The notes under the pieces were generated by a model. That model was not told the DNA's origin. It ran no database searches and saw only the letters and a list, made by a program, of their open reading frames with translations. A program made the position numbers and the translations under genes. DNA of 64,000 nucleotides from Auricularia sp. M13 (lineage: Eukaryota; Basidiomycota; Agaricomycetes; Auriculariales; Auriculariaceae), in NCBI GenBank assembly GCA_037042915.1, contig CM073193.1, forward strand, positions 1,550,001-1,614,000, written 5' to 3'. Positions 3,623-48,258 of this stretch are shown one piece after another; positions within the stretch are counted from its first letter, which is position 1; every line of letters starts with the position of its first letter.

Positions 3623-4055
3623 TGTCATGCGCGCGAGCGCTGACTCGCCCCACCGCGCCAGTTTCTGTCCGCGTCCGAGCTCGTCCCGCTGCGGCAGACA
3701 AGTTACTCGCCTTTTCTTTTAATTCACCTTAACATACATTGCCCCACATTGTAATTCGCCCTTAGTTCTGGAAATAGCACCTGAGATGTTCCTGGAAGTC
3801 ATTCACCGACTCACTCCAGTCCAGGAACCGATACTGACTTACAAGTGACTTAGAAGTGATTCAGGAATGACTTAGATAGTGCATGACTCAGAGGATTCTC
3901 AGATGTACTTAAGGAACTCAGGAGCGAGCCATTGTAGGGCAGCTCTTTTGTAATCGGAGACTTTGAGCAACTCACGACTCGAGCTTCTGCTCAACCGAAA
4001 GCATCAGACTCTTTTCCGCAAGCTACTAGCCTAACCAGCTCTTCCGTAGCTTACA
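3623..4055 (+). repeat. 5' LTR of the Gypsy element
   Basis: This 433-bp repeat starts TGTCATGC and ends CTTACA. It matches the copy at 28,353-28,785 at every position I compared. It should hold the promoter and polyadenylation signal of the element. I did not recognise a tRNA-complementary primer site just inside it. Confidence 0.97.
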
Positions 4056-11600: not shown

Positions 11601-11889
11601 GAGATGTTTTATTTACTAGCCCATTCTGGCGGAAGTTGCATGAATTGACCGGAACTAAATTGCGCATGTCAACGGCATACCATCCACAGACCGATGGCAT
11701 GACAGAACGCGCGAACCGCACCATCGGTCAGATGGTAAGGCAATGTATCGGCGAAACCCAGAAAGACTGGGCAGGGAAATTGCCAGCAATTGAGTTTGCC
11801 TTGAACTCAGCAACATCCACTACGACCGGGTTCAGCCCTTTCTTTATGAATTATGGCTATAACCCGAACGCGGTCACGTGGGACAAACC
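8650..11889 (+). mobile_element. Gypsy protease, RT, RNase H and integrase region
   Basis: The aspartic protease motif IDSGSLTDF lies near 8.75 kb. The reverse transcriptase covers about 9.4-9.9 kb and includes the catalytic box VYLDDIIVY near 9.71 kb. RNase H follows at about 10.15-10.52 kb. An integrase HHCC zinc-binding domain lies at about 11.21-11.32 kb, and its catalytic core at about 11.39-11.88 kb. The KDZ transposon interrupts the integrase after this point. The region is broken. Confidence 0.9.
11882..11889. repeat. Target-site duplication GACAAACC, left copy
   Basis: GACAAACC occurs here and again at 26,646-26,653, directly outside the two ends of the KDZ element. An 8-bp duplication is what Zisupton/KDZ transposons are known to make. 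Confidence 0.85.
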
Positions 11890-11953
11890 CACCATAGGCT
11901 GCCCCAAATGGGGTCTCTTAGATGTAATGTCACGGTTTAAGAGATGGGTCTAA
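11890..11953 (+). repeat. KDZ left terminal inverted repeat
   Basis: Imperfect inverted repeat with the right end at 26,581-26,645. Best blocks are AGGCTGCCCC at 11,896-11,905, TTAGATGTA at 11,918-11,926 and GATGGGTCTAA at 11,943-11,953. Each pairs with a block on the right at the same offset within 1 bp. Confidence 0.8.
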
Positions 11954-12012
11954 GAGGGCGATTTGGCTGAGGGGCACCTAGGCTCCCCTCCGACCCTTTT
12001 TTCCTCGTCCAT

Positions 12013-12111
12013 AGGTGCACCTTTTCAATTCAGCAGGTGCACCTTTTCGTGTCATCAGGTGCACCTTTCTACGCTCGCAGGTGCACCTTTACAAGTCCGA
12101 CAGGTGCACCT
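12013..12111. promoter_or_regulatory. Left phased array of five AGGTGCACCT decamers
   Basis: Perfect copies of the palindrome-like decamer start at 12,013, 12,035, 12,057, 12,079 and 12,102, so the spacing is 22, 22, 22 and 23 bp, about two helical turns. The array begins 123 bp from the element end. Subterminal repeats of this kind usually bind the transposase; that is inference here. Confidence 0.85.
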
Positions 12112-12348
12112 TGCACGTGAACTTTGGCAAATCCTGCACGTGCCCCTTCGCAAGTTGTCACGTGCACTTAGGGACACTTTTCACCGCTGCCCAAGCTGTC
12201 AATGTCTGCTCAAGCAGCGTCAAACCTACAGGGTCGTGTATCTGTGCGTGTCGGTCGCGCTTGATGCACTGTTGGAAATCGTGACATATTTACTCCATAG
12301 GTAACTATTCAACGAGCGCCTCGCAACGCTGGCTCATTATCTTGCTGC

Positions 12349-12572
12349 AGGTGCGCCTAATCTCACGCTAGGTGCACCCAGCATTGAAGAATGTTTTCCT
12401 CGCGACTTAGGTGCACCTAACCCGTGCTGCTCGCGCGCCGCCCCATAAATGATGCTACCTAGGTGCGCCTAATTACATTCTAGGTGCACCTAGCATTGAA
12501 GATTGTTTTCCGCGCGACTTAGGTGCACCTAACCCGTGCTGCCCGCGCACCGCCGTGCCGCCCCATAAATTG
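12349..12572. repeat. Tandem duplication with decamers and CCCCATAAAT boxes
   Basis: Two tandem units start at 12,349 and 12,461 (112 bp apart). Each holds three decamer variants, the shared phrase AGCATTGAAGA, and a CCCCATAAAT box (12,441-12,450 and 12,561-12,570). The second unit has about 8 extra bp before its box. That second box lies 66 bp before the ATG of the next gene and could act as its TATA element. Confidence 0.8.
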
Positions 12573-12635
12573 AGCCAGCAGCGACAACCTCCCTATCGGC
12601 CTTACACCATCACATCCCCCAGCCCACAACCCGCT

Positions 12636-12904
12636 ATGCCCTGGGAACCGACTTGCACTCAGGACCGCGAGATTTTCCAGGAGCTTGGCAACGAATGGGC
12701 ATCCTGGAATCATAAGAAAGACGGCGGTGCGTACCTTCACTCGATATTGCCTGCCTCGCGATTTCTCAAACCACGTTTCATGATTCAGAGTCGGCTGAGC
12801 AGTACCTTGCGCGCGGCCGAGCTGCCGTACAGGCCTATCTCGATGGGCTTGACAAGTTACCCGTACTCAACCCACCGCCTGCTATCCCGCTGCCTGCGCC
12901 ATAG
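12636..12904 (+). CDS. Small KDZ cargo protein, two exons
   Basis: Exon 1 (12,636-12,726) and exon 2 (12,789-12,904) join across a 62-bp GTGCGT...TTCAG intron to give about 68 residues. The start is the ATG downstream of the second CCCCATAAAT box and the tandem decamer repeats. The N-terminal part is acidic and helical (DREIFQELGNEW region). The C-terminus is Pro-rich. I recognise no domain. Position next to the left end and behind a decamer-rich promoter suggests an accessory gene of the transposon. An unspliced longer frame is open too, so the intron is a judgement. Confidence 0.5.
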
Positions 12905-13359
12905 ACTTCGGGCCAGGACGGAGGACATGTCGCACGGGCAGCTGCACCACTTCGCTCGCGAGCTCGATGCCTGGAGGGAATGGCACCAAAGCTTTCAACC
13001 GCTCGGCGCCGTATAATTCTACCCCTCGCGTGGATTGCACTACCTAGTGTAACATCGGCCGTTGCAGTGCCTACATGTCATCATGACTACCGAGTTAATA
13101 TACAAGTGTTCGAGCAAATGGAATCGTCGAAATCGAGTTGTCAGGCGCACCAAATCCTCCATAAGTTGCACTAGCTGCCCGTTCCGATGAGTTAGCAGCA
13201 CCTGAAATCCAGAACCTGCGACAATAAGGTCAGATTTAGGTGCGCCTTGCGCTGGAGACTCGGATCTCACTGAGAGTGCCGCGACAGCGGATGATGCTCC
13301 CCCCTCTGGTACAGGGCCTTGTACGAGGAAATATCTAAATAATTCAGATACCATTAGAT

Positions 13360-16300
13360 TAAAAACTCGCGTCCTCGTCCTCGTCCACAATGACTATACT
13401 GTGAATGTTGTCCCAATTCTGTGGACCCTTGCTCACCACCTCCTCAATCCTCAGAGCACGAACCTGCTGGGCCATCGCATTCCGCCAGTCGCCCATCTCG
13501 CGTTCCGTCTGGATGCTTGGTTCGTCAGACTGCATCAAGCTGACGGCGTCAGCTGCGACGAAAGGGCCGCAGTCATAGCCGTTCGTCTGCCTGACCCCGC
13601 GCTACGTGAAATTTTAGCATGTTATACTGCCTCCATACAGAATGTACTTACCAGTTCACCTATCCATGAGAATGATGATGCATCAAGACCGCTCTCATAA
13701 AACTCTTCGCAGAATTTCAGTAATAAGCGCGTCCGTGCCTCGAGCTGCACGGCGTAACCGCGCACACATGCGAAACTGTCATAGAAGTGGATGGATCGCG
13801 TCGCCCAGCGAACCTCAATTAGTGTCCAGTGGGCTGGTGACTGCACATGCGCGACGATGAGCCACTTCTTCGCAACAGATGGATGAACCAACTTGAATAT
13901 CATCAGTAATTTACGGTTGGCACTGAACACCACGAACGCACCGTCTGCAGTGTCGCGAATATTGCCCTCTTGTTAGAAGCGATACCTTCTGCATTGTTGT
14001 CTCTGACGCAGCTTTCGTAGCAGGCAACGTCCCACAGGGTGCACGAGTGAACGACGCTGATCGAGGAGACGCCAAGAATTTGCAGGCGGTGCTGCAAGAA
14101 CGTGGCCAGTCCATCGCCACTCAGCCATCCGCGCCGTGTGCCCATCGGGTTGAGGTCCTCGTCGGTGCAGGTAAACTGGCCAGCTCGGTAGACGATCCGC
14201 ACAGACGGATTTTTCCTAGACGTCGTATCGTCCTTCTTGCTGTTCGAGTTGACCTGCGGTTCACCTTGACGCGCTTCCGGGAATAGCGTCATCTCGGCGA
14301 ATCCATCCTTGCCGACTATCGGTCGTATTGGGGATGCCACCTGCAGGATACAACCATGAGGTCCATCGTTTGCTGGCAACAAATGAACGTACCGTATTTT
14401 GATCGCCCAACACATCGTCTTCCATCTCTATACACGGGTCTCCTGCGCCCTCTTCGGTGCCCAGCATATCAAAGAACTCGGCGACAGGATCGTCTTCTTC
14501 CGCCAGCTCAGTGTATGCGTCGGACGCGTCGTCCGAGTCAACGTCTGACCTGTGGTCGGCAGAGCTCTGGCCAACGTCGTCCAGCGCGTCCAGCGCGTCG
14601 ACGCTGAACCCTTCGTGTTCTGCTGTAAAGCCAGTGGATAGCCCGCAGCCAGCGCTCTTGCCCTCTTCAAACCGCCCGAGTAGCGCTGCCGCACGAAGGT
14701 TCTTGGTCCAGATGTCGCCCAACGCGATATGCGTCTCAAGTCGACGCCGCCCTGCCTCACGGACGCTCTCGTGCTCTATCCGGGAATCAAGCTTCAGCCA
14801 ATGCGAGCGCCGGGACATACTCACGAGTACGATCGGAAATCAGAGCCTGCAGGCTATCCACCTGTCTCTGATACCACAGGCCCAGCGCACGAGCCTCCGC
14901 TTCGACCCGCTCAACCTCCTCTGAGCAACGACGCTTCTCCAACAGGGCAAGAATGCCGCGCTTGACATTATCGTCCGTCTGCCAGCGTGGGAGGTCGCCT
15001 TCGTTCTGAGGGCCCAAGCCTGGGTCCTCCTGCCAGATATCGTCGTCGACCTCGAGCTTGAAGATTTTCCGGGCGTCCAACTTCCGTGGGAGAGGCACGC
15101 GAGCACTGGGCTTCTGTCCTTGTCGCGCCAACTTGGTCATGTCGTCCACCAGTTCGTTGAACTTTGCGATTTGCCCGGAAAGCGTGCGCTCATGGCGCTG
15201 AACCAACTCTTTGGTCTGCGAATGTTCTTTGGCCTCTGCGACGCGCGTCAGCTCTCTGTGAATCTTGCGCTAACCGCACGCACGAAGAATCTGCTGGCGG
15301 TAAGCACGCTCCAGTTTACGGCGCTCGAACTTATGGTTGACAATGCCTTGCCTAATTTTTTCGCGCAGGGCACGAGCGTTCACGCGCGCGCAGAGGTAAG
15401 CATTCCCCTTCATCGACTCCAGCCGCCGGCACTGTTCCGTTCCCAGCGTCGCGTTGAGCGTAACGATGCGCGCCTTCGTGGTCTCCATTGTTGCCTGAGC
15501 CGCGTCGATTCGTGCTGATACCTCGGTCGTTTGGCGTGCGGTCATATGTTGCGCCTTTCGCAATTTCGCGCGGTCGTCCTTAAGCTGTTGCTTGATGTCA
15601 CCGAGCAAGCCCATCGCCAGCAGTATCTCATCGATGACGCGGTCGCCAGCCTTCTGCGATTGCCCTGTCATAGGGTTAGTCCGCCTGTCGCAACGAATAG
15701 TGCTGTACATACGGGGTGTCTTCTTCGCAAGGTACGACTGGACCTGATGGTCCCATTCCTTGCCCAATTCGTCGTCAGTCAGGCCAGAACCCGCGATGAG
15801 GGCTTCGGCTTCCCGAGCTCGGCGCAGGGCGTCCCGATAGCGCCGTTTCAGCCACAAGCCGAACTTCCATTGGCTGAGCGAGTCCAGCGCTGTTGCCTGT
15901 TGATCCAGCACAAACAGGCGCCTGTGAAACTACGGGAATGGTTACTCATCGCAGGCTGGCTTGTACTTCGAAAACGACGCACCCCTGAGACGCGAAGGCA
16001 CGCAATCAAATGCCGGATTGCACTCCAAAACCGCTCGCACCCTTCGCCGTCGCTGAGACCAAACGCGTTGCGCTTGCGCGGATGAAAGACGATCTGGCAG
16101 GCCCATTGGTGCCCGTATGCATGGAACACGGATACACCAAACGTAAGCCGCCCAGCCAGCTCCTCAAGGAGACCCCACTATGGACTGTCAGCTATAGCGC
16201 GCGAGAACACGAAAAGTGCAGGCGAACCTTTTCAATGCTGCGCGCAAGCTGGCAGCCAATGTCATAAAGAACGCCGAGATGCCAGCTGCGTGGCAGTTCC

Positions 16301-18122
16301 CTGCCGAACTTGCGTATCAGGGCGAGGGCAAAATGTTGACGTTCACCGGGGGTGTTCATATTGGCAACCCAGAGGACCCGGTCGTGGCGGCAGAGAAGAG
16401 CCATTAATCCGGTGTCTGCGTAGTAATTTTTCGACGCCTTTGTGACGGACTCTTGCGCAGCGATAAATGAGTGCTCGCATTCATCAAGCACTTCGTCGCC
16501 AACGCCGGCCACAAGACTTGAAGTCAATTTCCTGGGCTTGCGCTTTCGCCTTTCGGCGAGCTCTTGCTCCATTTCGTCCACCTCCTGCTGCGAGATAAAG
16601 CGACCGCCCGCAAACGTGAGCTCCGGGTCGATTTGCTCCGTTCGACGCCGCTTCTGAGCGAAATTAGCATCTAAACAGACAATGCTATCGGCCCTGCAGC
16701 GTTGAGTTGATCAGACCCATTGTATGCAGTGGTTCAATAGATACGCACGGCGAGTGTTGCAAATTTGGTTGTTGACCGCCGAAGCAAAGTGGGCAGATGC
16801 GTTGTAGCCGTAACGACGGCTGGTCTAGGTCTGCGCTGGCTTCCCCTACATCCTCGGTCCGCTGTTCGTCGCCTACGATGTCACCAGCCTCGTCGATGTC
16901 CATCAGCTAGCCGGACGGAACGTTGTTCAGAGCAAACACGCGCGCGCGCTGAATGCACGCACCATATCGGCCGGAAAACCCTCGTTGTCTGGGTTCTGGG
17001 GTTCATCAATAACTCGTGTTATTTCCGGGGTGCGGACTGAGAGCATGAACAATCAGCAGTAGACCCAAACCGACGGCAGTACACAAACCTGGCTGTGGGA
17101 GAGCCGCTGTGACAAGGGCTTCCGCACGGTTATCAAGAGCCTGATACCAGGTCAACGCTGAGCTCAGCCGCTTGCGCAAGTGTCCCTGCGGGTCATTCAG
17201 TCAGAGCTCGCGATTCCCGCCCGTACGCACAGTAACTTTCGAAACTCGGGCCTTCCGCGACCAAAATACTTCCAAAGTATCGGCCCACGCGGTGAAGTTG
17301 GGTGCAACGTGTAGGGAATGGATGGATATGAAATCGAGGAGCGCCGTGCTAAAGGCGATTGATGGGCATTTCGGGGCCGATGGGAAATATCCACGAGCAA
17401 GCAGACGCTCCGCCGCCGATGTGCACTGACAGATGTCCAGATAGGACTCGTGACATCCTGCAAATGGCATGAGCTCCCATAATCCAAGCGCCACGAACGT
17501 CATGCGTACCATCCCAATCCGCGAGCGTTATATTGATGTGTCGCGAATGAACGCAGACACATAAGTTGTCAGAGACAGGCTCGACCGGGGCTGCACTGTG
17601 CTTGTGGTGCAGATAGACGTAGTGCAGGCGTGGAACCGAGATTATGTCTTGCCAGCGCTGGTGTTGTGCCAGTCGACGCCGGCGGTGCCGAGATACTGTC
17701 GGCAACATCGCTTCGGTGGAGCCCAGCGCAAAGGGATCGTCTTCGTGGCCAGGAGCATTGACTAGCGCCAGCATCTCCGAGGTCAAGCCGTGAATACTCT
17801 TGTCGGTCGTTGCGAATAGATTCTGTATCGCTGTCCGACCGTCTGCCACAGCCTTGGAGATATTCGTCTGCGTGAACTTCCGTTGGCCCGGCAGCGTCAG
17901 AACTGGGGCGTCGTAAAGCTTGTGTGCAATCTTGGGCTCGCGGGGCAGGCGACGTCGTTTGGCCTTCGTGCCAACTGGTACGAACACAAGCGGGCCAGGA
18001 CTGGACGAGCCAGCTCCCATGCCGTCCAACGCGCTGCCATCCAGTGCTGCTGAAGCGCGGGCAGCTGCGGCCTTATCGCGCTTGCTGCGCTTGGTGACGC
18101 CGGCGCGGGGACGAATGGGCAT
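13360..18122 (-). CDS. KDZ transposase fused to a Ulp1-like (C48) cysteine protease
   Basis: The gene starts at ATG 18,122 and reads through about 13 exons to a stop at 13,360-13,362, roughly 1,380 residues; every junction I traced is GT-AG and in frame. Exon 1 is 17,510-18,122, with a 52-bp first intron. Order of parts: basic N-terminus; the CxC cysteine cluster of KDZ proteins (about 17.55-17.25 kb, including CHESYLDICQC and the phrase HSLHVAPNFTAW); a CPLC motif; then the catalytic core. Its probable D-D-E residues are CLDANF (Asp codon 16,669-16,671), DIGCQL (16,261-16,263) and EGCERFWS (16,034-16,036). The C-terminal third is a Ulp1-type protease with His (13,829-13,831), Asp (13,778-13,780), and Gln and Cys in QTNGYDCGP (13,587 and 13,569). 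Nothing looks broken. The protease may process SUMO-like conjugates; this is inferred from the family. Confidence 0.9.
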
Positions 18123-18943
18123 TCAAGCGGCGGTAAAAGCAGTGAAGCTTGGGAGACGGACTGGACTTTCGGAGTGTCAATCCCCGTCCAGCGCGCAACG
18201 ATGCTCCAAAGCAAACAAGTATGAGCGTTCTCTCGGCTGGCACTGCGTATAGTATCAAAATCTACGCTTATATGTCAGAATTTATTTCGCCTGCACAGTG
18301 TAACATGAGCAGGAACTGGTGCTCCCGCGAACAGTCCCAGAGACACCCACCCTCTGATAATTCATCAACGAGACATTTGTGAAGGAGAGATCTCCTCGAA
18401 TGTCTAGGCATATTGCTTCTCAAAAAATCCAATTGCATTTCCACTACCAGGCGGCGCTCCATGACCGCACTTGCAATCCCACAGTAGAGTCCGGTTTCTG
18501 TCCCGAACAGATCGCAAAACGCATACTGCCCGAAAGAATCAATTATAAATTATGGGTTCTCTCGGGATTGACAGCTTAGGGTCCTCTTCTGAGTACCAGG
18601 TGGAGCCTGACGTATATAATCAAACCGTCTCGTTCATAGAGGATGTGATTCTGGAGGATGCGGCAGAATTACTGTCCCGAACAAATCACTCGCGGCAGAT
18701 ACCAACTGGAGATCGTATTTATAATTTTATGAATCATGCAAATGACCTTTAATCTGCATCCAATACCACACGAAAATGTGTCTGATACCTAGCCATACCC
18801 CCAGCACGATATATTGAGGTTGTGTGCGGTTTAGCTGGGAAACGGGTTTGGTCGGCATTGCAATTCGACTCGCCCTTTGCTCCGAACGTTCATCTTATCA
18901 TTTCAAAGTTTGCTTTACACGTTTACACACCTACAACGGGGGC
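18123..18943. other. Gap between the transposase and the basic cargo gene
   Basis: This divergent intergenic region is the only one in the element where I see no AGGTGCACCT-type decamers. A 66-codon frame at 18,552-18,752 (plus strand) starts with ATG but has no supporting context. I would not call it a gene. Confidence 0.5.
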
Positions 18944-19681
18944 ATGGCGCGCCCCTGCAAATACAAGACCGAAGAAGAGCGTCGTGCGGCAAGGAATCGC
19001 TCGAAAAAAGAGTATTACGAACGGTGCGTACGTAGCTCAGCATGCACGAGCGCTGCTAATGAGCCGAATCCTACGTAGCAATGCTGCACGCGAGCGCGCT
19101 CGTGCACTAGAACGTCAGCGCGCCAGGGTAGAGCGCGCGCGAAGCGCACGTGCAACCAAGCCTGCGCCAGAAATGATGGACCTTGGGGATATCCTTCCTG
19201 CGACGGTTCAGGTACGCCACACTTGATCCTGCGCTCCGTCGCCAGTGCTAATGTATGCTATAAGTTACTAGGCCTTCCCATCGTCATCGACTGTAAGGTC
19301 GACCTCTCAGCGCTGGCCACACCACTTCAAGCAGACCTGAGCGCGTGGCGTCGAGGAAGCGACGAGGAGGCCGCCTGGGAGGAATTGACTCTGCGCCTTA
19401 TTGCTTCAGCAGACCGTCGTCGTCAGCTCAAGACCGTCATCAGCGACATCAACTCAAGGCGCCTGATAGCAGAGCAGGTCCTCAGCTACGCAGAGGAAGC
19501 TCACGTTGAGGCTTGGAAGCGGCGCGAGAAGCGCAACACGCGCATACTCGACAAGATTTGTCACAAGGCCACTCGCGCCGTGACTGGGCTGACGGAATTG
19601 CTGATGCAGTCTACTGAGGGCAGTCGCGGGCTGTTAAGGAAGTCATACGAGACGAAGGAACTTATGTGGCAGACTACGTAG
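18944..19681 (+). CDS. KDZ cargo protein with basic bZIP-like N-terminus
   Basis: Exon 1 is 18,944-19,023 and exon 2 is 19,079-19,211, joined by a 55-bp intron. The frame continues to a stop at 19,679-19,681 after a second intron whose acceptor I could not fix. Residues 9-50 are extremely basic and helical (EERRAARNRSKKEYYER, then a run of Arg/Ala/Glu), resembling a bZIP basic region. A predicted coiled or helical segment follows in the last exon. It could bind DNA, perhaps the element's own repeats, but no leucine heptads are clear. It is transcribed away from the transposase gene. Confidence 0.55.
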
Positions 19682-19800
19682 TTATGTAGAACAGCAATTT
19701 CATTTGATCATGTATTCTGAATGGCTGGGCAACATTCAAGTTCGAACGCGCCGTCTGATGTCTTTGCAACCAATACCTGCAGCAGCCAACTGCATCTAGC

Positions 19801-20678
19801 CTACAAAAGCTCGAGTAGCTCACGCTCCAAGTCCCGCATATTGATTGGGCGGCCGCGGAGAAAGTCGTGGGCAGGATGATGAGGTGCGCGCGACGTCGCT
19901 TCGGTGGGGGACTCGAGCGCAGGCATGCCACGCGCGTCTTCGAATGACGCATGGGGAGACATTTCTTCGGTGGGCGATTCGAGTGGCGGCATGTCGTCGT
20001 CGTTTTCTGAAGGTGCGCCGAGGTTGATTCCCCACCAGTCGCCCGTGTCGTCGACGTTGCGCGTGCTGGCGTCAAAGCGCTGTACCCAGTAGGCCGCCAT
20101 GACGCGCTCGATCGCTCGGACCTGCTCCTCGTGCGCAATGCTGACGAGGCGCTGGGTGACGGGTGCAAGCCGGACTGGGCGGGTCGACTGCCAGCGCGGC
20201 AGAGCGTCGCGGATGCGCAAGTACTCCTGCATATGGCGCTCGACATCGGCATCGGACATCACATGCCAGTGTACTGCGGTTACGTAGGACCCGTCGTGCT
20301 CTCTGCAGAGGCGGCATGGGTTGCCGCGAGAGCACTCGGCAGGTGGAAGGCCGTGGCGAACTCGGCTGGCCGCACAGTCGCGCTGCAGGATAATGAACTC
20401 GAGATACGCTTGCATAGAGTCCAAGTAATCCGGGAACTCGTCGTCCGCTGGGAGCTCGCGATCGCTGTCGGTGTCGCTGCCAGCACTAGTACCAGTAGGA
20501 TTGTCGGACGCCGCTTGCTGGTAGGCGGTGAGCCACTCTGTGAATCGCATGCGCAGTTCATCGTCGGGAAGGGGGATGGTATCCGGAGTAACTTCAGCGT
20601 TCCTGTGAAAGAAAAGTCAAATCTTGAAGCACGGGATGAACGGGCACAAGATGCTTACTGTCGGATGAGAGCAGGCAT
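19801..20678 (-). CDS. Acidic KDZ cargo protein of unknown function, two exons
   Basis: Exon 1 is only 20 nt (20,659-20,678, MPALIR plus two bases). A 56-bp intron follows, then exon 2 (19,801-20,602), giving 273 residues. The N-terminal half is helical; a small Cys cluster (CSRGNPCRLCREH) lies near residue 110. Two near-identical acidic phrases (PPLESPTEE and PALESPTEA) repeat near the C-terminus. No catalytic motif is seen. It shares a divergent intergenic region, filled with decamers, with the 984-residue cargo gene, so the two may be co-regulated. Confidence 0.65.
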
Positions 20679-20793
20679 CTGAGGAGACGGGAAATGGCCA
20701 GACGAGCGTGGACAGAGACAAGTCAATCTGCATGTATGCATAAGTATAGCCGTCGTGGGCCCACCAAAGCTCCTATGTCGGCTCATGGAGACT

Positions 20794-20972
20794 AGGCGCA
20801 CCTGTACCCCTCAGCCCGAGCGCGCAGGCGCACCTATGCTCATACGCCACCGCAAATAAATTCACATGGTAGGCTATGATGGCATCGCAGGCCCACCTAT
20901 GCTCCTATCCCCCCGAGACTAGGTGCACCTGAGTACCCCGGCCGAGGGGTACAGGCGCACCTAGGCGCACCT
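20794..20972. promoter_or_regulatory. Decamer cluster in a divergent promoter
   Basis: Variants of AGGYGCACCT start at 20,794, 20,826, 20,889, 20,921, 20,953 and 20,963. Most gaps are 32 bp or about twice that, close to three helical turns. The cluster lies between the start of the minus-strand gene at 20,678 and the plus-strand gene at 21,326. A further copy lies at 21,268-21,277, 9 bp after a TATAAA at 21,254-21,259. Confidence 0.75.
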
Positions 20973-21325
20973 GTGCAATTTACAGCCTGGCCAAGAAAAT
21001 TTAGTAAGATGAAAACACTATTATTTTGAGTGTTTGCAGAAGGAAAAAACGAACCATAATATGGGTTCTAGTGACTGCAAGATGCCCTTGGGTAAAATGT
21101 ACGGTTCACGGGTGGTGGAAGCGGCGGCGAATGCCGCGTCCGTCTGTCTTCCGCAAACCCGCTCGACGGCAGCCACGATCGCGCATGGATGACGTCCAGC
21201 GCTCCTAACTACGATGGCCGCAAGACTAGGGCGGGGAACGTCTGCGTTCCAGCTATAAAGGTCTCAAAGGCGCACCTAGGGCAGGTCAGAGCCCTTTTTC
21301 TATTTCGACCTCGTGCGCGTTCTCG

Positions 21326-24300
21326 ATGACCCCAATGTCCACGGCCCCTGAAGGCGACGTGGAGGCTGCTTCACTGCCTGCCGCTGCTCCATTGCCGGAT
21401 GCGACATTGACTGCGCTGTCATCTCAAGATGCTCCACCGCCAGTTCAGAACGTCGACGACGCGGGCGCAGGCAACATCGTCCAGGTATGCCATCCGCGAG
21501 CCTAGTCTTCGGCATATGCAGTTGCTTATCCGTTTTCAGATGCCCGTGCTCTCCCAGTGGCAAAAGGCGGCCGAGACTCGCAAACTCAACAGGTTGAAGC
21601 GCGCGCAGGAACTGCAGACACAGGCAAACGCCTTGGTATGTATCAGCCGTCGCTCTCCGCTGCAACCATTGGCTTATGCTAGTAGGAGGCATCGAGCAAC
21701 CCTGACGCCAATGTCGGCGGGCGCACGAAGCGAATTCGCAAGCCGCGAGGATCCTCTGGTCTTGGCCCGCCGTCAGCGCCCGCCGCACTCGCCGGCCCCG
21801 TCACCCCAGCGCCCATTGCACCCGCTGGTCCCGTCGCTCCAGCGCCCGCGGCACCCGTTGGTCTCGTCGCCCCAGCGCCTGCCGCACCAATCGGCCCCGT
21901 CGCTCCAGCGCCCACCGCACCTGCTGGTCCCGTCGCTCCAGCGCCCGCGGCACCCATCGCTCCAGTGCCCGCGGCACCCGTCGCTCCAGTGCCCGCGGCA
22001 CCCGCTGGCCCCGCTGGTCCCGTCAAGCCGAGTCACACCGCACCCACCTGTACCGTCGTGTCAGCGCGCGCCGTCCCCGTTGTTACCGTGAAGTCAGCGC
22101 CCGCCGCACACGCCGGGCCTGTCGCGTCCGCTGGTTCCGTCGCTCCCGCTGGTTCAACGCCGCAGCGCAATGCCAATCCGCCGACGCAGCCGCCTCCTGT
22201 CTCGCGCGCGCCTGTCCAGCCGGAAGGTGTCGGTGCAACTCCCGGGCGCGGCAAGAAATACAAACCTGGTCCTCTCAGTGCCGTAGACGATGCGCGCTTC
22301 TGCGCGTGGATGAAGGAAGCAGAAAATTTCGTGAAGAATTTCTCCGAGGAGACGGGCAAGTCGGCGCGATACCTCTGGAACCGGATGGCCATGACGGTCA
22401 AGGAAGTCCGCGAGGTATCCCTGTGGAACCTGTGGACCCATCGCTGGGCGTTGGAGAACAGTCGCAACGTCGCTGCTGGTGAGTCTTCGTACTGTCTGCC
22501 TCATACAGCTTGCTAACTTGCGTGTCAGGTGAAACGCAGGCCGAGTTTCTGAAGCGCCGGTCGGTCGAGTACCATATCAAGACCGATCCCATGTCCGATG
22601 ACGAGAAGGAGGCGTACAAGGAGGAGCTCAACCGGTGGTCCGAGCGGTATGACAAGGAGGTCGCCGATGGTATTGTCGACAAGGGCGAATTATACAAGGT
22701 CATGAACCGCGCTTGCGAGCAGTTCGAGGAGCTGGTGCGTGGGTAGCATCGGGTGGTGATTTATCGTTAATTATTCTCCAGGGGCACCCGCTGTACACTC
22801 ATTACAACATCGCCGCGTTCGGCTTCATCATCTGCCTCGATTCCACCGACGCCGGCGGGGTTGCGTCCAATGGATGTTGGGCGAACGTCGACATCATCAA
22901 GAACTTTCTTACGCAGCGCAAGGTTCACGTTCGCAGCCTTGGAAACGATATCTGCAATCTTCTCGGGTGAGTCGTTCAGCGCCCGTTCTGCGCAGTTGTT
23001 GACATGTTCTTTCAGGGTGAAGCGTCTCCATGAAGCAGAGACGAAGGACTGGAGCCCTCAAGCGTTCGACGAGTGGACTCACGTCGACCAAGCCAAGAAG
23101 CGCGACAAGTTGAAGGAAGCTTTCAATCATTTACAATGTACGTGCTGAGTCCACAAGTCCAGTCCTGAATTAACAAAGTCGTAGACATTCTTATGGGCAG
23201 CAAGTCTCCAAACCACACGGAGTACGTCAAGCTCGAGCAACGCACCTTTGAGAGCTTGAAGCGCATGGTCAACTGGCCCCCTGGCGTAGCACTTCCAAGC
23301 GTCGGTCGAGACAAGTACCTGACAGACCAGATGCGCACGCTGGTCGAAGCAATGTTTCGCGCATTTCATGCCTTGGACCATCCGGACGACCCAGGCTCAT
23401 CCGATGAGTCCTTGCTCAGATTCGAGGATATTCAGGAAGGTATGCAATGGTTTTTGGCCGCGTACATGAACCTTGTTTAACATGTCTCTGCAGATGAGCT
23501 CAAACTCCAGCATTCTATTGGGGACCGCGACGATTGGCTCCAGGTTGCGATATGGACGGCGTCCGATGGTACGGTCCTTCTACGCGTCGAGGATTTCGTC
23601 GGGGCGAAGAAGGGCAAGGTTATCGCTACGCTGCGCGAGGACGCCAGGAAGAAGGCGAAGGAAGCTGCCAAGCTCGAGGTCGCGAAGTTGACGCCTGACC
23701 CAGCCACCGTTCGGTCGAAGAAGGGCGCGAAGAAGTATGTTGAGATCGACGACGAGGACGAACAGGCGGGGTCAGGCGATGACTCCGGCGCTGAGCCCGA
23801 CGCGAAGGACGTACGCATGTCGTCTGGCGGCCACGCAAAGCCGAAGCGAGTGGACAAGACTGACGACCAGCCACGCGACCATTCTGCCACGGACACAAAG
23901 AAGAAGAAGCGCAAGAAGGCGTCCGCCGCGGTCGAGGAGGATGAGGATGGCCTCGCCGAGATCGCGAAGAAGCGCGACTCGTCGTTGCGCGGCGATGCGA
24001 AACGACGCAAGACGCAAGGCACGGAGACCGCGGCAAAGCGGACGCGCGGTTCAAGGACATCATCTACGTCGAAGACTGGCAAAGCTGGACGCCAGGTTGG
24101 CGGGGGTGACGATGCTGCCGTGCACGCGCGCGCGGGGGATCAGGTTAGTTGGGCCTGAACAGTTCCACTAAAGTGTATTGACACGATCTGTTAGGCTCAA
24201 CTCAAGGACAACGTGCAGTCACCGCAGCAGAACGGCATCACCGCGTCTACCTCGATACTCGACGCGATGCAGGGTGTCGTCGAAACGGGCACTGCGGACT

Positions 24301-24683
24301 GGTCTTTGCTCGCCCCAATTGCTGGCGGCTTGTCGCTCGGTGATACCCAGCTCTACGGCACGCAAGGACAATTCTCGTTCATGGGAGGGCAGCAACTCCA
24401 CCCGCCTTTCACTGGCGGGCAGTTCGAAGCGCGTCAGCCACCACCATTTGCCACTGGTCAGTCGCAGCCATTCGCACCCGGTTCACAACACGTCGACATG
24501 TCGCAGTTCGTCGGGCAATTCCCCATGCAGCAGTTCCTCGGCCCAGACTTGCCGCAGTTCACCAGCATTCAGCAGTTTCCTATCGTCGGCGCGCAGCAGT
24601 TTTCCGGTGTCGACCTTTCGGGTGGTCAGCAAGGATTGGGCCGTCGGCAGAGCTCGGAAGGTCATGAGTCGGGCGGACAGTAG
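21326..24683 (+). CDS. 984-residue KDZ cargo protein, Pro/Ala repeats and basic tail
   Basis: Nine exons join in frame: 21,326-21,484, 21,540-21,635, 21,686-22,478, 22,529-22,734, 22,782-22,966, 23,016-23,137, 23,185-23,439, 23,494-24,143 and 24,195-24,683. The introns are 47-55 bp. A low-complexity block of Ala/Pro/Val repeats (units like GPVAPAPAAP) covers about residues 115-215. A helical region (about residues 280-600, with DDARFCAWMKEAENFVKNF near its start) looks globular and conserved in style but matches no family I know. A Lys/Arg-rich acidic-basic segment (about 620-820) resembles nuclear localisation signals. The C-terminus is Gln/Gly/Pro-rich. The profile suggests a nuclear, perhaps chromatin or transcription-related, protein. 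TATAAA lies 67 bp before the ATG. No break was seen. Confidence 0.75.
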
Positions 24684-24915
24684 TGTTGGCAGCTAGTGCA
24701 CACGACTTGAACACTTATTCACACCGTTGTAACTTGGTGCACACGCTAGTTTTGCGAATTATTTTCTTGTGAACATTTGCCTAAGGAAGCGCGGTACATG
24801 ACAAAATTACTCGTAATAGTTCTGTTTCCACACGCACGCGCGCAAGGGCGAGATAATGAGTAGTGTTCATCTAAGGCGGATATGAACACACAGCACAATA
24901 AGATGCTAATGATAC

Positions 24916-25125
24916 TTACCAAGCGTCTGGGGTGGAGGAAATGGCGCGGTTCGTGTCGATCACGTCCTCAACGTCATTGGAACGTCGTCTGCGAAATGTG
25001 CGTTGATTCCAGCGTGCCTGCCACAGGATGTACGCTCTGGTGAGCCGCATGCGTGTCGAAGTATTTATGCGTAAGGCGGCGAATGCACGCTCAAGTTGCT
25101 CGGTGGAAGGCATAGCGGGCGTCAT
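24916..25125 (-). CDS. Small basic KDZ cargo protein (69 residues)
   Basis: A single-exon frame begins with ATG at 25,125 and stops at 24,916-24,918. It is Arg-rich and helical, with RTFRRRRSNDVEDV near residue 45. It sits divergently opposite the gene at 25,723, sharing the large decamer array between them, which is the same arrangement as the other cargo pair. There is no recognisable domain, and its short length leaves real doubt. Confidence 0.45.
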   Translation of the reverse strand: MTPAMPSTEQLERAFAALRINTSTRMRLTRAYILWQARWNQRTFRRRRSNDVEDVIDTNRAISSTPDAW

Positions 25126-25211
25126 GCTGGGAGAGAAGGAAGAACGGCAGCTGCCAAACCTGTTGGCCCCCGCGGTCGGTTGCGCGTCATAGGTGACTTA
25201 TGACGGCAACT

Positions 25212-25640
25212 AGGCGCACCTGTGAGCTCATCGGGCATGTTCTAGGCGCACCTAGGATAGCGACGGAAGGTGAGTAGGTGCACCTACAACAGCGATCAAG
25301 CCGGAGTAGGTGCGCCTGAGAGAGGTGGTTAGGTGCGCCTACAAGCTCATGGGGTGTGGCCTAGGCGCACCTACGGTGATTGTTGACGGTGAGGAGGTGC
25401 ACCTGCGGCAGCAATGGAGTGGGAGTAGGTGCACCTTGGAGTGGTGGTTAGGTGCACCTAGGGGAGAATAAGAGTTCGGCAGGCGCACCTGAGAGTAAAC
25501 CTGAGAGGGGCTAGGTGCACCTATAGCCGCGATGCAGCGGGAGTAGGCGCACCTGCGAGTAGTGGTCAGGTGCGCCTAGGTGAGACTATGAGTGGAGTAG
25601 GCGCACCTGAAAGTGAAAGTGCGAGGGGCTAGGCGCACCT
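25212..25640. promoter_or_regulatory. Right decamer array with 118-bp higher-order period
   Basis: Fifteen decamer variants start at 25,212, 25,243, 25,276, 25,308, 25,331, 25,363, 25,395, 25,427, 25,450, 25,481, 25,513, 25,545, 25,568, 25,599 and 25,631. Gaps follow a repeating 32, 23, 32, 32 pattern, so groups of four recur every 118-119 bp. The block lies between two divergent cargo genes. Confidence 0.85.
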
Positions 25641-25722
25641 ACGGGTTATCACCTGCGGTACAGAACTTAGACACGTGGGTGAGGGGCATGCTAGAGCACG
25701 TACCTTGCACTCTCTTTCTCTC

Positions 25723-26106
25723 ATGAGCGCTTCCAAGACGACTCAGACAGATACCGGCGTCGCTTCTCGCAAACGTCGCGCGGAAAGTCCTCTCCCCGAA
25801 CTGCCGTCATCAGCTCGCACGCAGCCGGGCCACAAGCGCGCGCGAGCAAGCGCTGCACGCACCTCGAAGGGGACGGCAATGCCCGCAACAGACGAGTGGA
25901 CCGTGCTGCAGGGAAAGCTGGACGACGTGCTGAGTGGGAGAGCGGACAAGAGATTGGAAGACTGGGAGAAGGGATGGCGTGAGAGTTGCGAGGCTTTGGA
26001 CAAGCAGAAGAGTTTCAAGTTGGACGAGAAGACGCTGTTGAAGGATGTGGGAGCCTTGCTCAAACGCTGTGCGCATCTGGAGCATAGGTTGGGCATTCGC
26101 GACTAA
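25723..26106 (+). CDS. Small KDZ cargo protein, helical (127 residues)
   Basis: A single-exon frame from the ATG at 25,723 to a stop at 26,104-26,106. The first 55 residues are Ser/Thr/Arg-rich and look disordered. The last 65 are charged and helical with probable coiled-coil character (LEDWEKGWRESCEAL, then LLKDVGALLKRC). It lies downstream of the large decamer array. The composition argues for a real small protein, perhaps a subunit of a complex with another cargo product; that is inference. No family is recognised. Confidence 0.6.
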   Translation: MSASKTTQTDTGVASRKRRAESPLPELPSSARTQPGHKRARASAARTSKGTAMPATDEWTVLQGKLDDVLSGRADKRLEDWEKGWRESCEALDKQKSFKLDEKTLLKDVGALLKRCAHLEHRLGIRD

Positions 26107-26377
26107 AGGTGTGTCGTGGGCCAATGATGAGATGATTAACTCATGTCCTGCAGCCGAAACATCCCACTTCGAGCAGAGTACTGCAGGCATCCTTGTAACA
26201 TTATCATATGTACCACGACGTGCTTGATTGCGCGCAAGACATTGAACATTTGGCCTGAAATGAATGACAAAAGAGCTGATGAGATAAATGAGCTGAATGA
26301 GTGGCTTAAATCGACGTGAAGAGTTTTGAAAGCAAGGGGAGGATAGAGAAGAGCTCACCTCCCTCGGCGTAGGAAAA

Positions 26378-26520
26378 AGGTGCGCCTAGGGACGGCACGT
26401 GCATGTGCCGCAGTGCACATGGTGGGATAGAGGTGCACCTGGTGGGAAAGAGGTGCACCTGGTGAGACAGAGGTGCACCCGATGAGGAAAAGGTGCACCT
26501 GGTGGTGAGAAGGTGCACCT
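26378..26520. promoter_or_regulatory. Right phased array of AGGTGCACCT decamers
   Basis: Five decamers start at 26,431, 26,451, 26,471 (AGGTGCACCC), 26,491 and 26,511, exactly 20 bp apart. An outlying variant lies at 26,378. The last copy ends 125 bp from the element end, mirroring the left array. Confidence 0.85.
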
Positions 26521-26580
26521 GTGGTCATCACGAAATGGAGGAGTAGGGCCGCCTAGGGGAGCCTGCACCCAGAAGGTCAG

Positions 26581-26645
26581 TTAGACCTATCCTGTCAAAG
26601 GAGAGGATACATCTTACTGGTGTATGATCGGGACAGCCTGGCCTG
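26581..26645 (-). repeat. KDZ right terminal inverted repeat
   Basis: The reverse complement begins CAGGCCAGGCTGTCCC and pairs with the left end beginning CACCATAGGCTGCCCC. TAAGATGTA (26,608-26,616) and GATAGGTCTAA (26,581-26,591) match left-end blocks at the same offsets. Confidence 0.8.
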
Positions 26646-26653
26646 GACAAACC
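26646..26653. repeat. Target-site duplication GACAAACC, right copy
   Basis: This is the right partner of 11,882-11,889 and marks the outer edge of the KDZ element inside the Gypsy integrase region. Confidence 0.85.
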
Positions 26654-28352: not shown

Positions 28353-28785
28353 TGTCATGCGCGCGAGCGCTGACTCGCCCCACCGCGCCAGTTTCTGTCC
28401 GCGTCCGAGCTCGTCCCGCTGCGGCAGACAAGTTACTCGCCTTTTCTTTTAATTCACCTTAACATACATTGCCCCACATTGTAATTCGCCCTTAGTTCTG
28501 GAAATAGCACCTGAGATGTTCCTGGAAGTCATTCACCGACTCACTCCAGTCCAGGAACCGATACTGACTTACAAGTGACTTAGAAGTGATTCAGGAATGA
28601 CTTAGATAGTGCATGACTCAGAGGATTCTCAGATGTACTTAAGGAACTCAGGAGCGAGCCATTGTAGGGCAGCTCTTTTGTAATCGGAGACTTTGAGCAA
28701 CTCACGACTCGAGCTTCTGCTCAACCGAAAGCATCAGACTCTTTTCCGCAAGCTACTAGCCTAACCAGCTCTTCCGTAGCTTACA
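28353..28785 (+). repeat. 3' LTR of the Gypsy element
   Basis: This 433-bp repeat is identical to the 5' LTR. A short purine-rich stretch (GGGAGGG, about 28,342-28,348) just before it may be the polypurine tract. It is followed by the duplication TGTTC at 28,786-28,790. Confidence 0.97.
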
Positions 28786-39557: not shown

Positions 39558-42342
39558 ATGCTGCCCACCGCCCGCAGCGCACCGTCCCACTCCGCGCGCC
39601 CGCTAGCCCGCGCGCTCTCCGGACTCAGCAGTAGTTCGTCCTCAGGCGCTGGCGATTCCGCAGAGTTCTTGCAGGGCGAATGGGGTCTTATGTTCGGCGA
39701 GCGGCTGCGCTTGCTGGCTCGCACGCAGACTCAGACCCAAACCCAGCAGACGTCGGGACAGGCGCAGGGGCAGAGTCAACGGACGCCGTTTGCTATGCCT
39801 GCTCCTCGGCCTACAACTAGCGCCCACGTGCCCTCGCAAGTCGCTTTGCATATGCCCATGCAGAGCCCGTATAATCCGCTTTTCTGGCAACATAAAATTT
39901 CGGCCATGCCCGCGACAATTGTATCTTTATCGCAACCCGCTCTGCCTCTTGCGTTACACCCCACCGCTTTCGTCCCTCCCAACTCCAGCTCGTCAGTATT
40001 TGAAGTCCCTGCTCAGCCTCAAACACCCCCAGTGCAGTATAACGGTGAGTTACACCCTGTATTTCTAATCAAGCTCTTATTCTTTGCAGTAGAACCCAGC
40101 GCTGCCCTCAACCGGTCTTCACGCAAACGGAAGCGCGGTATACTCGCCCGTGCGTTTGCTTGCTTAATTGACCGTCTTTGAGTCAAAAGCTGATGTCTAT
40201 CTGTATTAGCATATCCCGCCCCGGTCGTCGTTACGACGAATACTTCGGCCAACGCTACGCGTCCTGGGGTTGACTCGCTTGATCTTCCTGTTGACGCTCC
40301 ATCTCCTGCCCGAGGTACGACTGCTGCTATGGCGTTGAAGACTGCGGACAATCTTCCTACCTCGGTTCATCCTGCGGACTCGGTGTCCAGCTCCAGCGCT
40401 CCGGAGGTGGTCGTGCAGGAGGCTCGCGCGCGACGCAAGGCGAATGCCAACTCCGTAGACGTACCGCGTGCTACTCTGGAATCAAGCGAGCAGCGACGTT
40501 CCCCTCGCACTTCGTCTGTCACTCCAGGTCCACTCGACGTCGTGATGCAGGAGGCACGCGCACGACGAAGAACTGCAGCCAACCCTGTAAAGGTTGAACG
40601 TGCGCTGTCCCGTGCCGTACAGGCCCTGCGCGAACAGCATGCGCTGGTGTTGGACGATGCCCGCGACTTTGATGTGGGGATGGGCTTCGACGCCGTGGAT
40701 TTCCAGCTCGTCGGCTTAGAAGATCTCGCCATATCCCGCACCGTTGCCGTCCAAGCCAATACTGCCCCACGCGTCACCCCGATCCGGCGCGACACCAACC
40801 TAGGCAACAAAGACCCACAGTCGCTCGAAACCTTCCGCGCGAGCTTCACCAAGGACGTCGCGCGGGGCAACGCCCGGCAGGCCGTCCGCCGCATGTCGCG
40901 CCTTCTCTGCAAAAAGTCGTTCCTGCGCCACCCGGACCGCGGCGCGTTCTTCGACGTCGCGGTGCACGCGCTGCTGCAGAAGGGCGAGTACGCGGCGGCG
41001 TGCAACATCCACAAGTGGATGACGGACGAGGGCTTTCTCACGTCGCCTGCTGTGGTCACCGGCCTCGTCTGCGCGCTGAACGACGGTGAGGGTGTGCTGG
41101 AGGCGCTGGACGAAATGCCCGCGCACGTGGACGAGCCGCTGCTCGCGGCGGCGCTCTCCCGGCTGCAGGCGTCGCTGCCTGCTGCACAACTGGAGGAGCT
41201 CGCCGAGCGCCATCGGTACCAACGCGGGCGCGGCGTGACGTGCATCATGATCAACGCGCACGCGCGGGGCGGGGACCTGCCCGCGGCCGCGCGCTGGCTC
41301 GAGCGCTACCGCACGACGGCGAAGCCGGGGCACGCGCTGGAGCCCGCGCCGTACGCGGCGCTGATGGCCGCGCACCTGCGCGCGGGCGACCCGGCCGCGG
41401 CGCTCGGCGTGCTCGCGCTGATGCAGGCGGACGACGTCGCGCCGACGCTCGGCATCTACAACATGCTGCTCGCCGCGCGCGGGGCCCGACGGCGTCGAGC
41501 GCGCGTTCCGCGTCGCCAAGATCATCCCACCCGAGCTCTGGGCGCGCGCGGACGCGTTCACCTTTGCCGCGCTGTGGAAGGCGCACGAGCGCTGGCGCGC
41601 GGCGCTCGTCCTGCGCACCGGCGCGCCGCAGCCGGCGCCGCGCGCGCTGTTCCACGCCATGATGCTGCGTGCCCGTGGCGTCGTCGGCGCGCGCCTTCTG
41701 AACGTCGCGCTGCGCGTGCTGATGCTCCGGGAGGACTACGCGGGCGCGCTGGTGCTGCTCGACGTGCACGGCGCGCCGGACGCGCGCACGCGCCAGGCGG
41801 TGCTCGGCGCGCTGTGGCGCCGCATGCGCGGCGAGGTCGACGCGCAGCGGGCCGCGGAGGAACGCGCGCGGCAGCGCGAGGTCGAGCTGCGCGACCTCGG
41901 CCGTGTGCCGCTGCCCCACCAGCGCGAAGAGGAGCCGGGCCGGGAGCTCGCGCGCTGGACAGACCGCATGCTGGCCGAGCCCGGCGGGCTGCGGCGCCGC
42001 GGGACGTGGCTGCGCGCGTACGTCGCGCGCGGGGAGGGCCTCGCGGACTTCGAGGGCCTGTTCGAGTGGCTGCTCAACCTCGGGCCCGAGATCGAGCGCG
42101 AGCAGGGCGAGGGACGGGACGGGCTGGTTGACGTCCGCCCGCTGCGCGTGCTGCTCCGCCGTGCGGTCCTCGCGAGCAAGGACGTGTCCGTCCTCGCGCC
42201 CATCGAGGTGCAGAACGAGGTCATTCGCGCGGCGCTGGCGAAGGCGCGCGCGCAGATGCTGCCTGTGATGGAGAAGGAGCGGCCGCCGCAGCGCAAGAAC
42301 TGGAAGCGCGAGTCCAAGCTGAAGTCGCCTCGCGAGCGGTAG
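39558..42342 (+). CDS. PPR-repeat protein, probably mitochondrial, with one frameshift
   Basis: The likely start at 39,558 gives an Arg/Ser/Ala-rich N-terminus (MLPTARSAPSHSARPLARAL) fitting a mitochondrial presequence. An upstream in-frame ATG at 39,324 also exists. Introns are 40,045-40,089 and 40,150-40,209. After a low-complexity region, helical repeats of PPR type run from about 40.8 to 42.3 kb (ACNIHKWMTDEGF, ARWLERYRTTAKPG, ALGVLALMQADDVAPT). At 41,481-41,484 a run of four G shifts the frame; with three the reading continues unbroken to the stop at 42,340-42,342. Such proteins usually bind organelle RNA. The lesion may be a sequencing error or a real allele. Confidence 0.75.
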
Positions 42343-47600: not shown

Positions 47601-48258
47601 TGGCAGCAACGAAGTCGAACTTGACGATGGCACCCGCCTCATTGTCGACTGCATTATCTGGTGCACAGGCTACAAGACCGACTTCAGCCTCCTCGCACCC
47701 GACGTAGATCCTACGCGTCACACGACGCCACTGTGGGCCGCTTCTCCTGGCTCGCGTGGCAAACCGCTGCCGCGCCTTTTCCGAAACGTCTTCTCACTCG
47801 ACTATCCTGACTCTCTCGCGTTTATGGGCTGCGTTGCCTTCCCGACTGGCGCGTTCCCGCTTTACGATATCGCGTCCATGGTAGTGGCACAAGTGTGGAA
47901 GGGGCGCAGCAGCCTCCCGCCACGCGACGAGATGGAGCGTGCCGTTGACGAGCAACACGAGTGGATTTGCGACATCGCCAAGGACGGCAGCGCGATCCCT
48001 AGCTGGGTCGACCAGCACAAGTGGATGGCGTGGGCTAACCAGGCTGCTGGAACCGGCGTAGATGTGTATCTGGGCTGGGGCTGGCAGGGCTGGAAGTTCT
48101 GGTTTACAGACCGGGCTTTCTGCAAGCTTCTGCTTGGCGGCATCTATACGCCGCACATATTCCGCGTCTTTGACATGGGGAAGCGGAAGGCTTGGGAATG
48201 TGCTCGGGCAGAGATTGAGAAGGTTAATCTTTCGATTAGGGATAAAAAACAGGATTGA
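44694..48258 (+). CDS. Flavin-containing monooxygenase with a 1.74-kb first intron
   Basis: Exon 1 is 44,694-44,742 and ends in the middle of the FAD-binding GxGxxG motif. The next exon begins at 46,485 and completes VAVVGLGVLGL. Further exons lie around 46.49-46.61, 46.66-46.69, 46.80-47.07, 47.12-47.25 and 47.32-48.26 kb. The FMO signature FGGQCIHSRAF and a second dinucleotide motif, VVGLGNTGADTATAL (NADPH), are present, as is the C-terminal ATGY-like segment CTGYKTDFSLL. The enzyme should oxygenate a soft nucleophile on N or S using FAD and NADPH; the substrate is unknown. All other introns are 50-75 bp. The long intron has the structured elements listed separately. Confidence 0.82.
44803..44863. 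repeat. Hairpin-forming inverted repeat inside the FMO intron
   Basis: Arms of 18 bp (44,803-44,820 and 44,846-44,863) pair with 17 of 18 matches, around a 25-bp loop containing GAGCTC twice. A GU pair would cover the mismatch in RNA. Confidence 0.75.
44915..44938. repeat. Perfect 24-bp palindrome inside the FMO intron
   Basis: GAGCAGCCCGAG is followed directly by its reverse complement CTCGGGCTGCTC. It has no loop and lies 51 bp after the hairpin. Confidence 0.9.

Follow-up and report, generated by a model that had tools for sequence, protein, structure and literature searches.

A KDZ transposon of Auricularia with a recurrent gene module and arrays of a lineage-specific palindrome

A 64,000-nucleotide stretch of the genome of the basidiomycete fungus Auricularia sp. 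M13 (contig CM073193.1, positions 1,550,001 to 1,614,000), here called the window, contains a DNA transposon of the KDZ group (Kyakuja, Dileera, Zisupton) at window positions 11890-26645. In addition to its transposase gene (T), the element carries four firmly predicted cargo genes, termed B, C, D and F, and clusters of a 10-bp palindrome at both of its ends and upstream of some of these genes. The cargo genes are found again beside related transposases of the same genome, and the palindrome there differs between lineages. The unit of inheritance is proposed to be the module T-B-C-D-F together with arrays of a lineage-specific palindromic operator, with a protein encoded by the element itself reading the arrays; this reading is given a probability of about 0.6. 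Both the conserved module and its lineage-specific arrays are new in the literature covered.

Arrays of a 10-bp palindrome

The motif AGGYGCRCCT has 37 copies in the window, compared with 0.42 expected, and every copy lies within the element. A sequence-only reading of this DNA, made before the present analysis, overlooked these arrays. The left subterminal array (12013-12530) has 10 sites, and an 11th site stands singly at 13238-13247. Six sites are found in the divergent promoter region of C and D (20794-21277), 15 upstream of F, between the open reading frame (ORF) E and F (25212-25640), where 32 bp is the commonest spacing, and five in the right subterminal array (26378-26520). All 37 sites are outside genes, and none is found between the divergent genes T and B. 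Within the arrays there are tandem repeats with units of 118 bp and 112 bp.

Related copies of the element, designated C4a, C4b, C4c, C6a, C7a, C7b and C7c, have palindromes in the same intervals in which the window element has AGGTGCACCT. These are AGKCGCGMCT in C4a (35 sites), AGTCRYGACT in C4b (26), TGGCRYGCCA in both C6a (51) and C4c (45), and a mixture of TGGGGCCCCA and TGTCGCGACA in C7a (41 sites, where the loose pattern expects 2.8). C7b and C7c display the motif of the window, with 11 and 3 sites. Of the 249 sites counted in the eight copies, 246 fall outside gene spans. The top exact palindromic 10-mer is present in 7-22 copies in six elements, and shuffled sequences give 4 or fewer; C4a, with its incompletely symmetric motif, has 3 copies, the fragment C7c has 2, and three other stretches of the window have 1-2. 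The motifs mark lineages and not single elements, and there is some overlap between them.

The distribution of closely spaced sites was determined over the host genome (52 Mb, 14 contigs). When two window motifs 19-35 bp apart are required, there are 16 matches in each orientation, at 23 distinct places. With all matches listed, 16 of these places are in the window element, seven are in C7b, and there are none elsewhere in the genome. Pair places number 78 for TGGCRYGCCA and 99 for AGTCRYGACT, and reversed control patterns yield no pairs genome-wide for any of the three motifs. The best 50 of the 78 TGGCRYGCCA places are all within three cargo-bearing elements. Among the best 50 of the 99 AGTCRYGACT places, 46 are in or beside the elements at C1:4721 and C4:3781, and four are at C1:4676164-4677124. 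These four adjoin a KDZ locus (C1:4679312) with no cargo detected, and the first three of them have lengths equal to those of three places at C4:3761036.

Adjacent sites are most commonly 30-34 bp apart (71 of 160 spacings), and this class is seen in all seven copies that have arrays. The preferred spacing is about 32 bp, with 20-24 bp in some copies; the C6a array shows a 100-bp period. The best period for all 160 spacings is 10.3 bp, a value owed mainly to the 30-34 bp class.

The cargo genes and their recurrence

Gene B (18944-19681, plus strand) has three exons and encodes a protein of 209-210 amino acids with a basic N-terminal helix. It is divergent from T, and its promoter is free of operators. 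Three exons are found in six of six models, with an exon 1 of 80 bases in five of them. The B proteins start with (G/A)RPxK(Y/F), followed by a highly basic stretch. Gene C (19801-20678, minus strand) encodes 273 amino acids with a conserved Cys cluster. Gene D (21326-24683, plus strand) encodes a large protein that combines a conserved KPGPL...WNL domain with a tail that is basic and Q-rich; F (25723-26106, plus strand) encodes 127 amino acids. The sequence-only reading counted about six cargo genes, of which these four are firm. ORF E (24916-25125, minus strand, 69 amino acids) is weak, having one weak relative in the host genome, in C7b, and ORF A (12636-12904, plus strand, 68 amino acids in two exons) is unsupported, no relative having been found in the host genome.

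Searches of Pfam with B, C, D, E and F (single proteins in the case of C, E and F) and of PDB with B, C and D gave nothing convincing. Six B proteins have no Pfam match to bZIP and there is no PDB match, so that the resemblance of B to bZIP is limited to the basic helix. Cargo matches to 7TMR-HDED, EAD11, HMG_box_2, PutA_N, DNA_meth_N and others were rejected, being under the cut-off or unsupported and inconsistent between members. A PDB match of the cargo to a TAL effector chain (E=0.00058) was also rejected, as no single stretch passes alone.

Recurrence of the module was assessed by combining a KDZ family search of the host genome with cargo searches made protein by protein. The KDZ search scored 150 of 163 candidates, and the counts are therefore lower bounds. 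Its 149 rows were merged into 95 loci when less than 3 kb apart; one D row was kept per locus and, in the window, the main B row only. The KDZ loci C11:1735837, C3:3535529 and C4:3013240 were set aside, the sole cargo match of each belonging to a neighbouring copy. Of the at least 95 KDZ loci, 26 have one or more of B-F located on that side of the transposase where the window has them. These 26 are the window and exactly those 25 loci that have nucleotide similarity to its transposase gene (37 of 38 candidates scored), and the similarity falls in the KDZ exon in 24 of the 25. No cargo of their own was detected at the other 69 loci, all of which are without nucleotide similarity to the window transposase gene.

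The cargo content of the 26 loci is B, C and D in 10, D only in nine, B and C without D in five, B and D in one, and E and F only in one. C4b is counted among the five without D, and tblastn places its D further off. F is present at three other loci by genome search and in five of the seven relatives examined by tblastn. All 16 B genes scored are divergent from T, and all 15 C genes are on the strand of T. The orientation of D is that of the window in 15 of 20 loci and inverted in five (C1:4986131, C1:8690694, C11:2275553, C4:369238 and C8:1729466), which may represent a second arrangement of the module.

A KDZ gene is found within 20 kb of all but one of the 17 B loci, all but two of the 17 C loci and all but one of the 21 D loci. 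One of the exceptional C loci and the exceptional D belong to the dislocated fragment C7c. The true orphans, which have no KDZ match nearer than 20 kb, are a C at C5:121201-121634 and a B at C10:135317-135775; these are perhaps remnants or genes adopted by the host. The nearest relative of the window element is apparently broken in two. One piece (C7:2580000-2606999) has T, E and F, with several stops and frame breaks in the model. The second (C7:2730000-2739999) has C and D and is situated about 135 kb away in inverse orientation, and both pieces have the motif of the window.

The sequence-only reading pointed out that transposase copies lacking the cargo, or cargo genes present as ordinary host genes, would mark the cargo as a chance acquisition. 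Within the host genome, all 25 loci with DNA similarity carry at least one of B-F, nearly all B, C and D loci are near a KDZ gene, with the two true orphans mentioned above, and the same cargo set is indeed found at fixed positions in other KDZ copies.

Codon comparisons, from which models with broken frames were omitted (C7a for B, C6a and C4b for D), bear on the maintenance of these genes. Between the window and C4a, fourfold degenerate sites are identical at 19% of 32 sites in B (26% expected from composition) and 30% of 89 sites in D (28% expected), whereas codon positions 1 and 2 are 50-62% identical between the window and related copies, with 26-28% expected. The closest pair, C6a and C4c, is less saturated at fourfold sites, with identities of 42% of 26 in B (25% expected) and 48% of 31 in C (31% expected). 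Since fourfold sites are near saturation but codon positions 1 and 2 are conserved, genes B, C, D and F have been maintained by purifying selection past the point where silent sites largely lost similarity. With a set that recurs at fixed positions and is under selection, the cargo is not accidental.

The putative reader of the arrays

In the window element, the T/B promoter is operator-free, genes C, D and F are behind operators, and both ends have operators. Such an arrangement would be expected if C, D and F were later genes, turned on by a product of the T/B promoter. A dimeric protein encoded by the element and made from the T/B promoter would bind the palindromes. Once bound, it might help the transposase by bringing the two ends together, and might also control transcription of C, D and F by switching these genes on. 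Differences in operator sequence would limit cross-control between lineages within one genome. Proteases of the Ulp1 family remove SUMO-like marks, and the Ulp1 domain of T may remove such marks from element-bound proteins. Gene B is the best candidate for the reader, in view of the basic helix of its product and of its expression from a promoter without operators, common to B and T. The suggestion of the sequence-only reading that cargo proteins assist or regulate transposition is plausible. A more specific proposal, with somewhat less than an even chance of being right, is that the system serves KDZ self-recognition and anti-silencing. A protein of the element, probably that of B and perhaps with D as co-activator, would read the operator, open the C/D and F promoters and mark the ends; reader and operator would co-evolve, and related lineages sharing a nucleus would be largely orthogonal.

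Several observations weigh against an element-encoded reader matched to its own operator, or against B in that role. The interval between T and B, with no sites in the window, C4a, C6a and C4c, has two of the 26 sites in C4b and one of the 41 in C7a. The motifs overlap, in that C4a also has four sites of the window type and three of the C4b type, and 12 C4b sites fit the C4a pattern; the loose C7a pattern finds 25 sites in C4c, nine in C6a and three in the window fragment. C6a and C4c have the same motif and transposases that are 63% identical, and the window motif is common to C7b. The motifs of the relatives were picked from the commonest 10-mers, so that their enrichment, although not their position, is post hoc. 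General helical phasing of the sites was rejected, as removal of the 30-34 bp class leaves R=0.26 (p=0.02) and a best period of 13.8 bp. As for B, it matches no Pfam or PDB family, and its basic region, compared over six proteins, shows no conspicuous covariation with the motif: in C6a and C4c, which have a motif in common, this region is no more alike (62%) than in C4a and C7a, whose motifs differ. Covariation of this region with the motif was accordingly set aside as not informative. Motif similarity follows transposase similarity, and therefore any gene of the element could encode the reader, with D and C among the rivals of B.

Another explanation is that the transposase itself binds the palindromes, by its CxC cluster or its N-terminus, and that the roles of B, C, D and F lie elsewhere. 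The arrays are at both ends and T is present at 26 of 26 loci, the latter by definition of the search. There is also a precedent in Hermes, a hAT element whose subterminal repeats are bound by BED domains (PMC10368747). Sites cluster at the C/D and F promoters as well, however, far from the ends, and relatives have theirs in the same four intervals; the transposase is a less likely reader, though one to be taken seriously. A third explanation, that there is no element-encoded reader and that a host transcription factor binds the arrays, or that these are merely structural and grew by slippage, is improbable. Such growth would agree with the partly tandem nature of the arrays (the 118-bp and 112-bp units of the window and the 100-bp period of C6a), but in this host the corresponding intervals of related elements are occupied by different palindromes, and outside the window element and C7b no pairs of the window's palindrome were found in the 52-Mb genome. 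That the cargo genes are accidental passengers of single copies, for which the orphan loci C5:121201 and C10:135317 and the lack of an ORF A relative might be cited, is contradicted for B, C, D and F by a gene order that is fixed across up to 26 loci and by selection across a near-saturated synonymous distance, and it is hardly tenable except for A and E, where it is possible.

The proposed module can be compared with several known systems, as these are described in portions of the papers cited. The element resembles fungal KDZ transposons (the TET+ elements of PMC12730594 and Cryptococcus KDZ1-3 of PMC12810828) in having a KDZ core with a CxC cluster, duplications of 7-8 bp, a length of about 9-11 kb or more, and CA..TG termini as in Kyakuja. 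Kyakuja elements are reported to have a 7-bp duplication, CA..TG termini and no terminal inverted repeats (PMC12730594). Zisupton has an 8-bp duplication with terminal inverted repeats. Among the present copies, the duplication is 8 bp in the window and 7 bp in C7a and C4c, CA..TG termini occur in three, and a short imperfect inverted repeat is present. The window element differs from TET+ KDZ elements in that its seven proteins have no TET/JBP match. The conserved B-C-D-F set and the operator arrays are not described in those portions of the fungal KDZ literature (PMC12730594, PMC12810828, PMC7641404), nor, judging by titles and the openings of abstracts, in the other papers listed by literature searches, although there may be an earlier mention of some cargo genes.

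In Arabidopsis, the noncoding tandem repeats of VANDAL elements contain short motifs that are bound by VANC proteins and differ between families (PMC5735166, PMC10398659). The motif clusters of the window element are likewise noncoding, partly tandem, and divergent between related elements of one genome (compare PMC5735166). The VANDAL transposase, however, is of the MULE type and that of the window element is KDZ; moreover, the window motif is a palindrome and lies in subterminal positions too. Binding of the VANC motifs has been shown in vitro, and they bring about a loss of methylation (PMC5735166, PMC10398659); for the window arrays, binding and an anti-silencing role are proposals. In En/Spm, a CACTA element, subterminal repeats are bound by the accessory protein TNPA, which is also a regulator of the element (PMC2613891). 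These motifs, too, are repeated at both ends and vary between subfamilies (PMC2613891), but En/Spm has an unrelated transposase, CACTA termini and a 3-bp duplication. Hermes has several short sites near its end that are read by a protein of its own; the reader there is the transposase, and the sites are AAGT-like and near the ends (PMC10368747).

If the proposal is correct, the KDZ module would be an independently evolved fungal counterpart of the plant VANC and TNPA systems, and should the arrays act in anti-silencing, the strategy of VANC would have arisen a second time, in another kingdom. Cargo without known function becomes a defined four-gene module with a testable DNA target. As five motif types are found at homologous positions in one genome, swaps of protein and motif could give the specificity code of the reader.

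Transposase, insertion site and other window features

The transposase gene T (13362-18122, minus strand) has 13 exons and encodes a CxC cluster, a KDZ core and a C-terminal Ulp1/C48 protease. Gene models were obtained by homology-guided spliced alignment. The Pfam KDZ family (PF18758) matches T with E=4.2e-59 (200.3 bits, cut-off 26.6). CxC1 (35.2 bits) and CxC2 (31.7 bits) match upstream of the KDZ core, and both exceed their cut-offs, as does Peptidase_C48 (E=4.4e-6). The columns CxDANF, LYDIxCQ and GEGCERFW, which contain the putative D, D and E residues, are invariant in six of six aligned copies, as are the His, Asp, Gln and Cys of the Ulp1 domain; both sets are putatively catalytic. Two apparent defects of the first model were discarded. 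A premature TAG at 15270-15272 is inside a 48-bp GT..AG intron (15283-15236), where the five aligned relatives have a poorly aligned, intron-like stretch, and a frame shift near 13947 is removed by a 41-bp intron. With the two introns placed, the gene shows no visible damage. The sequence-only reading was right, then, in describing a transposase readable through 13 exons, with a fused Ulp1-like protease and the probable D-D-E and Ulp1 residues in place.

The element (plus strand, 14.76 kb) has the termini CACC...CCTG and short imperfect terminal inverted repeats with an AGGCTGYCCC core. GGACAAACC is present exactly on both flanks; given these termini, the target-site duplication is the 8-bp GACAAACC, at 11882-11889 on the left, with an alternative 9-bp reading of 11881-11889, and at 26646-26653 on the right. 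The joined flanks with a single copy of the repeat are identical to C5:72029-72314 over 286 of 286 unbroken bases, an empty site in the same genome. Both the ends at 11890 and 26645 and the 8-bp duplication, as originally read from the sequence, are thereby confirmed. The left end is common to C7a, C6a and C4c. CA..TG termini are found in three copies, and a short imperfect inverted repeat is present. Duplications are 7 bp in C7a and C4c, and 8 bp in the window only; at the right end of C6a, no duplication was found that pairs with its left side. A search of the host genome revealed no near-identical second DNA copy, the best nucleotide match being 67% over 1.8 kb (37 of 38 candidates scored), and a search of a phage collection gave no match.

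The KDZ element interrupts a Ty3/gypsy element (3623-28785) with matches to gag, reverse transcriptase and a Tf2-1-like SH3, along with a protease match below its cut-off. The long terminal repeats of the Ty3/gypsy element (3623-4055 and 28353-28785) agree at 433 of 433 bases, which points to a very recent insertion. Because it interrupts a retrotransposon whose repeats are still undiverged, the KDZ insertion is the younger of the two. The window element is an unusually complete and recently mobile KDZ transposon.

Probable host genes of the window are at 40194-42131 (plus strand), with a pentatricopeptide-repeat match slightly under the cut-off, and at 47254-48258 (plus strand), a flavin monooxygenase-like frame. 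At 52077-56369 (plus strand) there is one frame of 1430 amino acids with endonuclease (101-340), RNase H (410-547) and reverse transcriptase (792-1045) domains in that order. The position of RNase H before reverse transcriptase is unusual for a non-LTR element.

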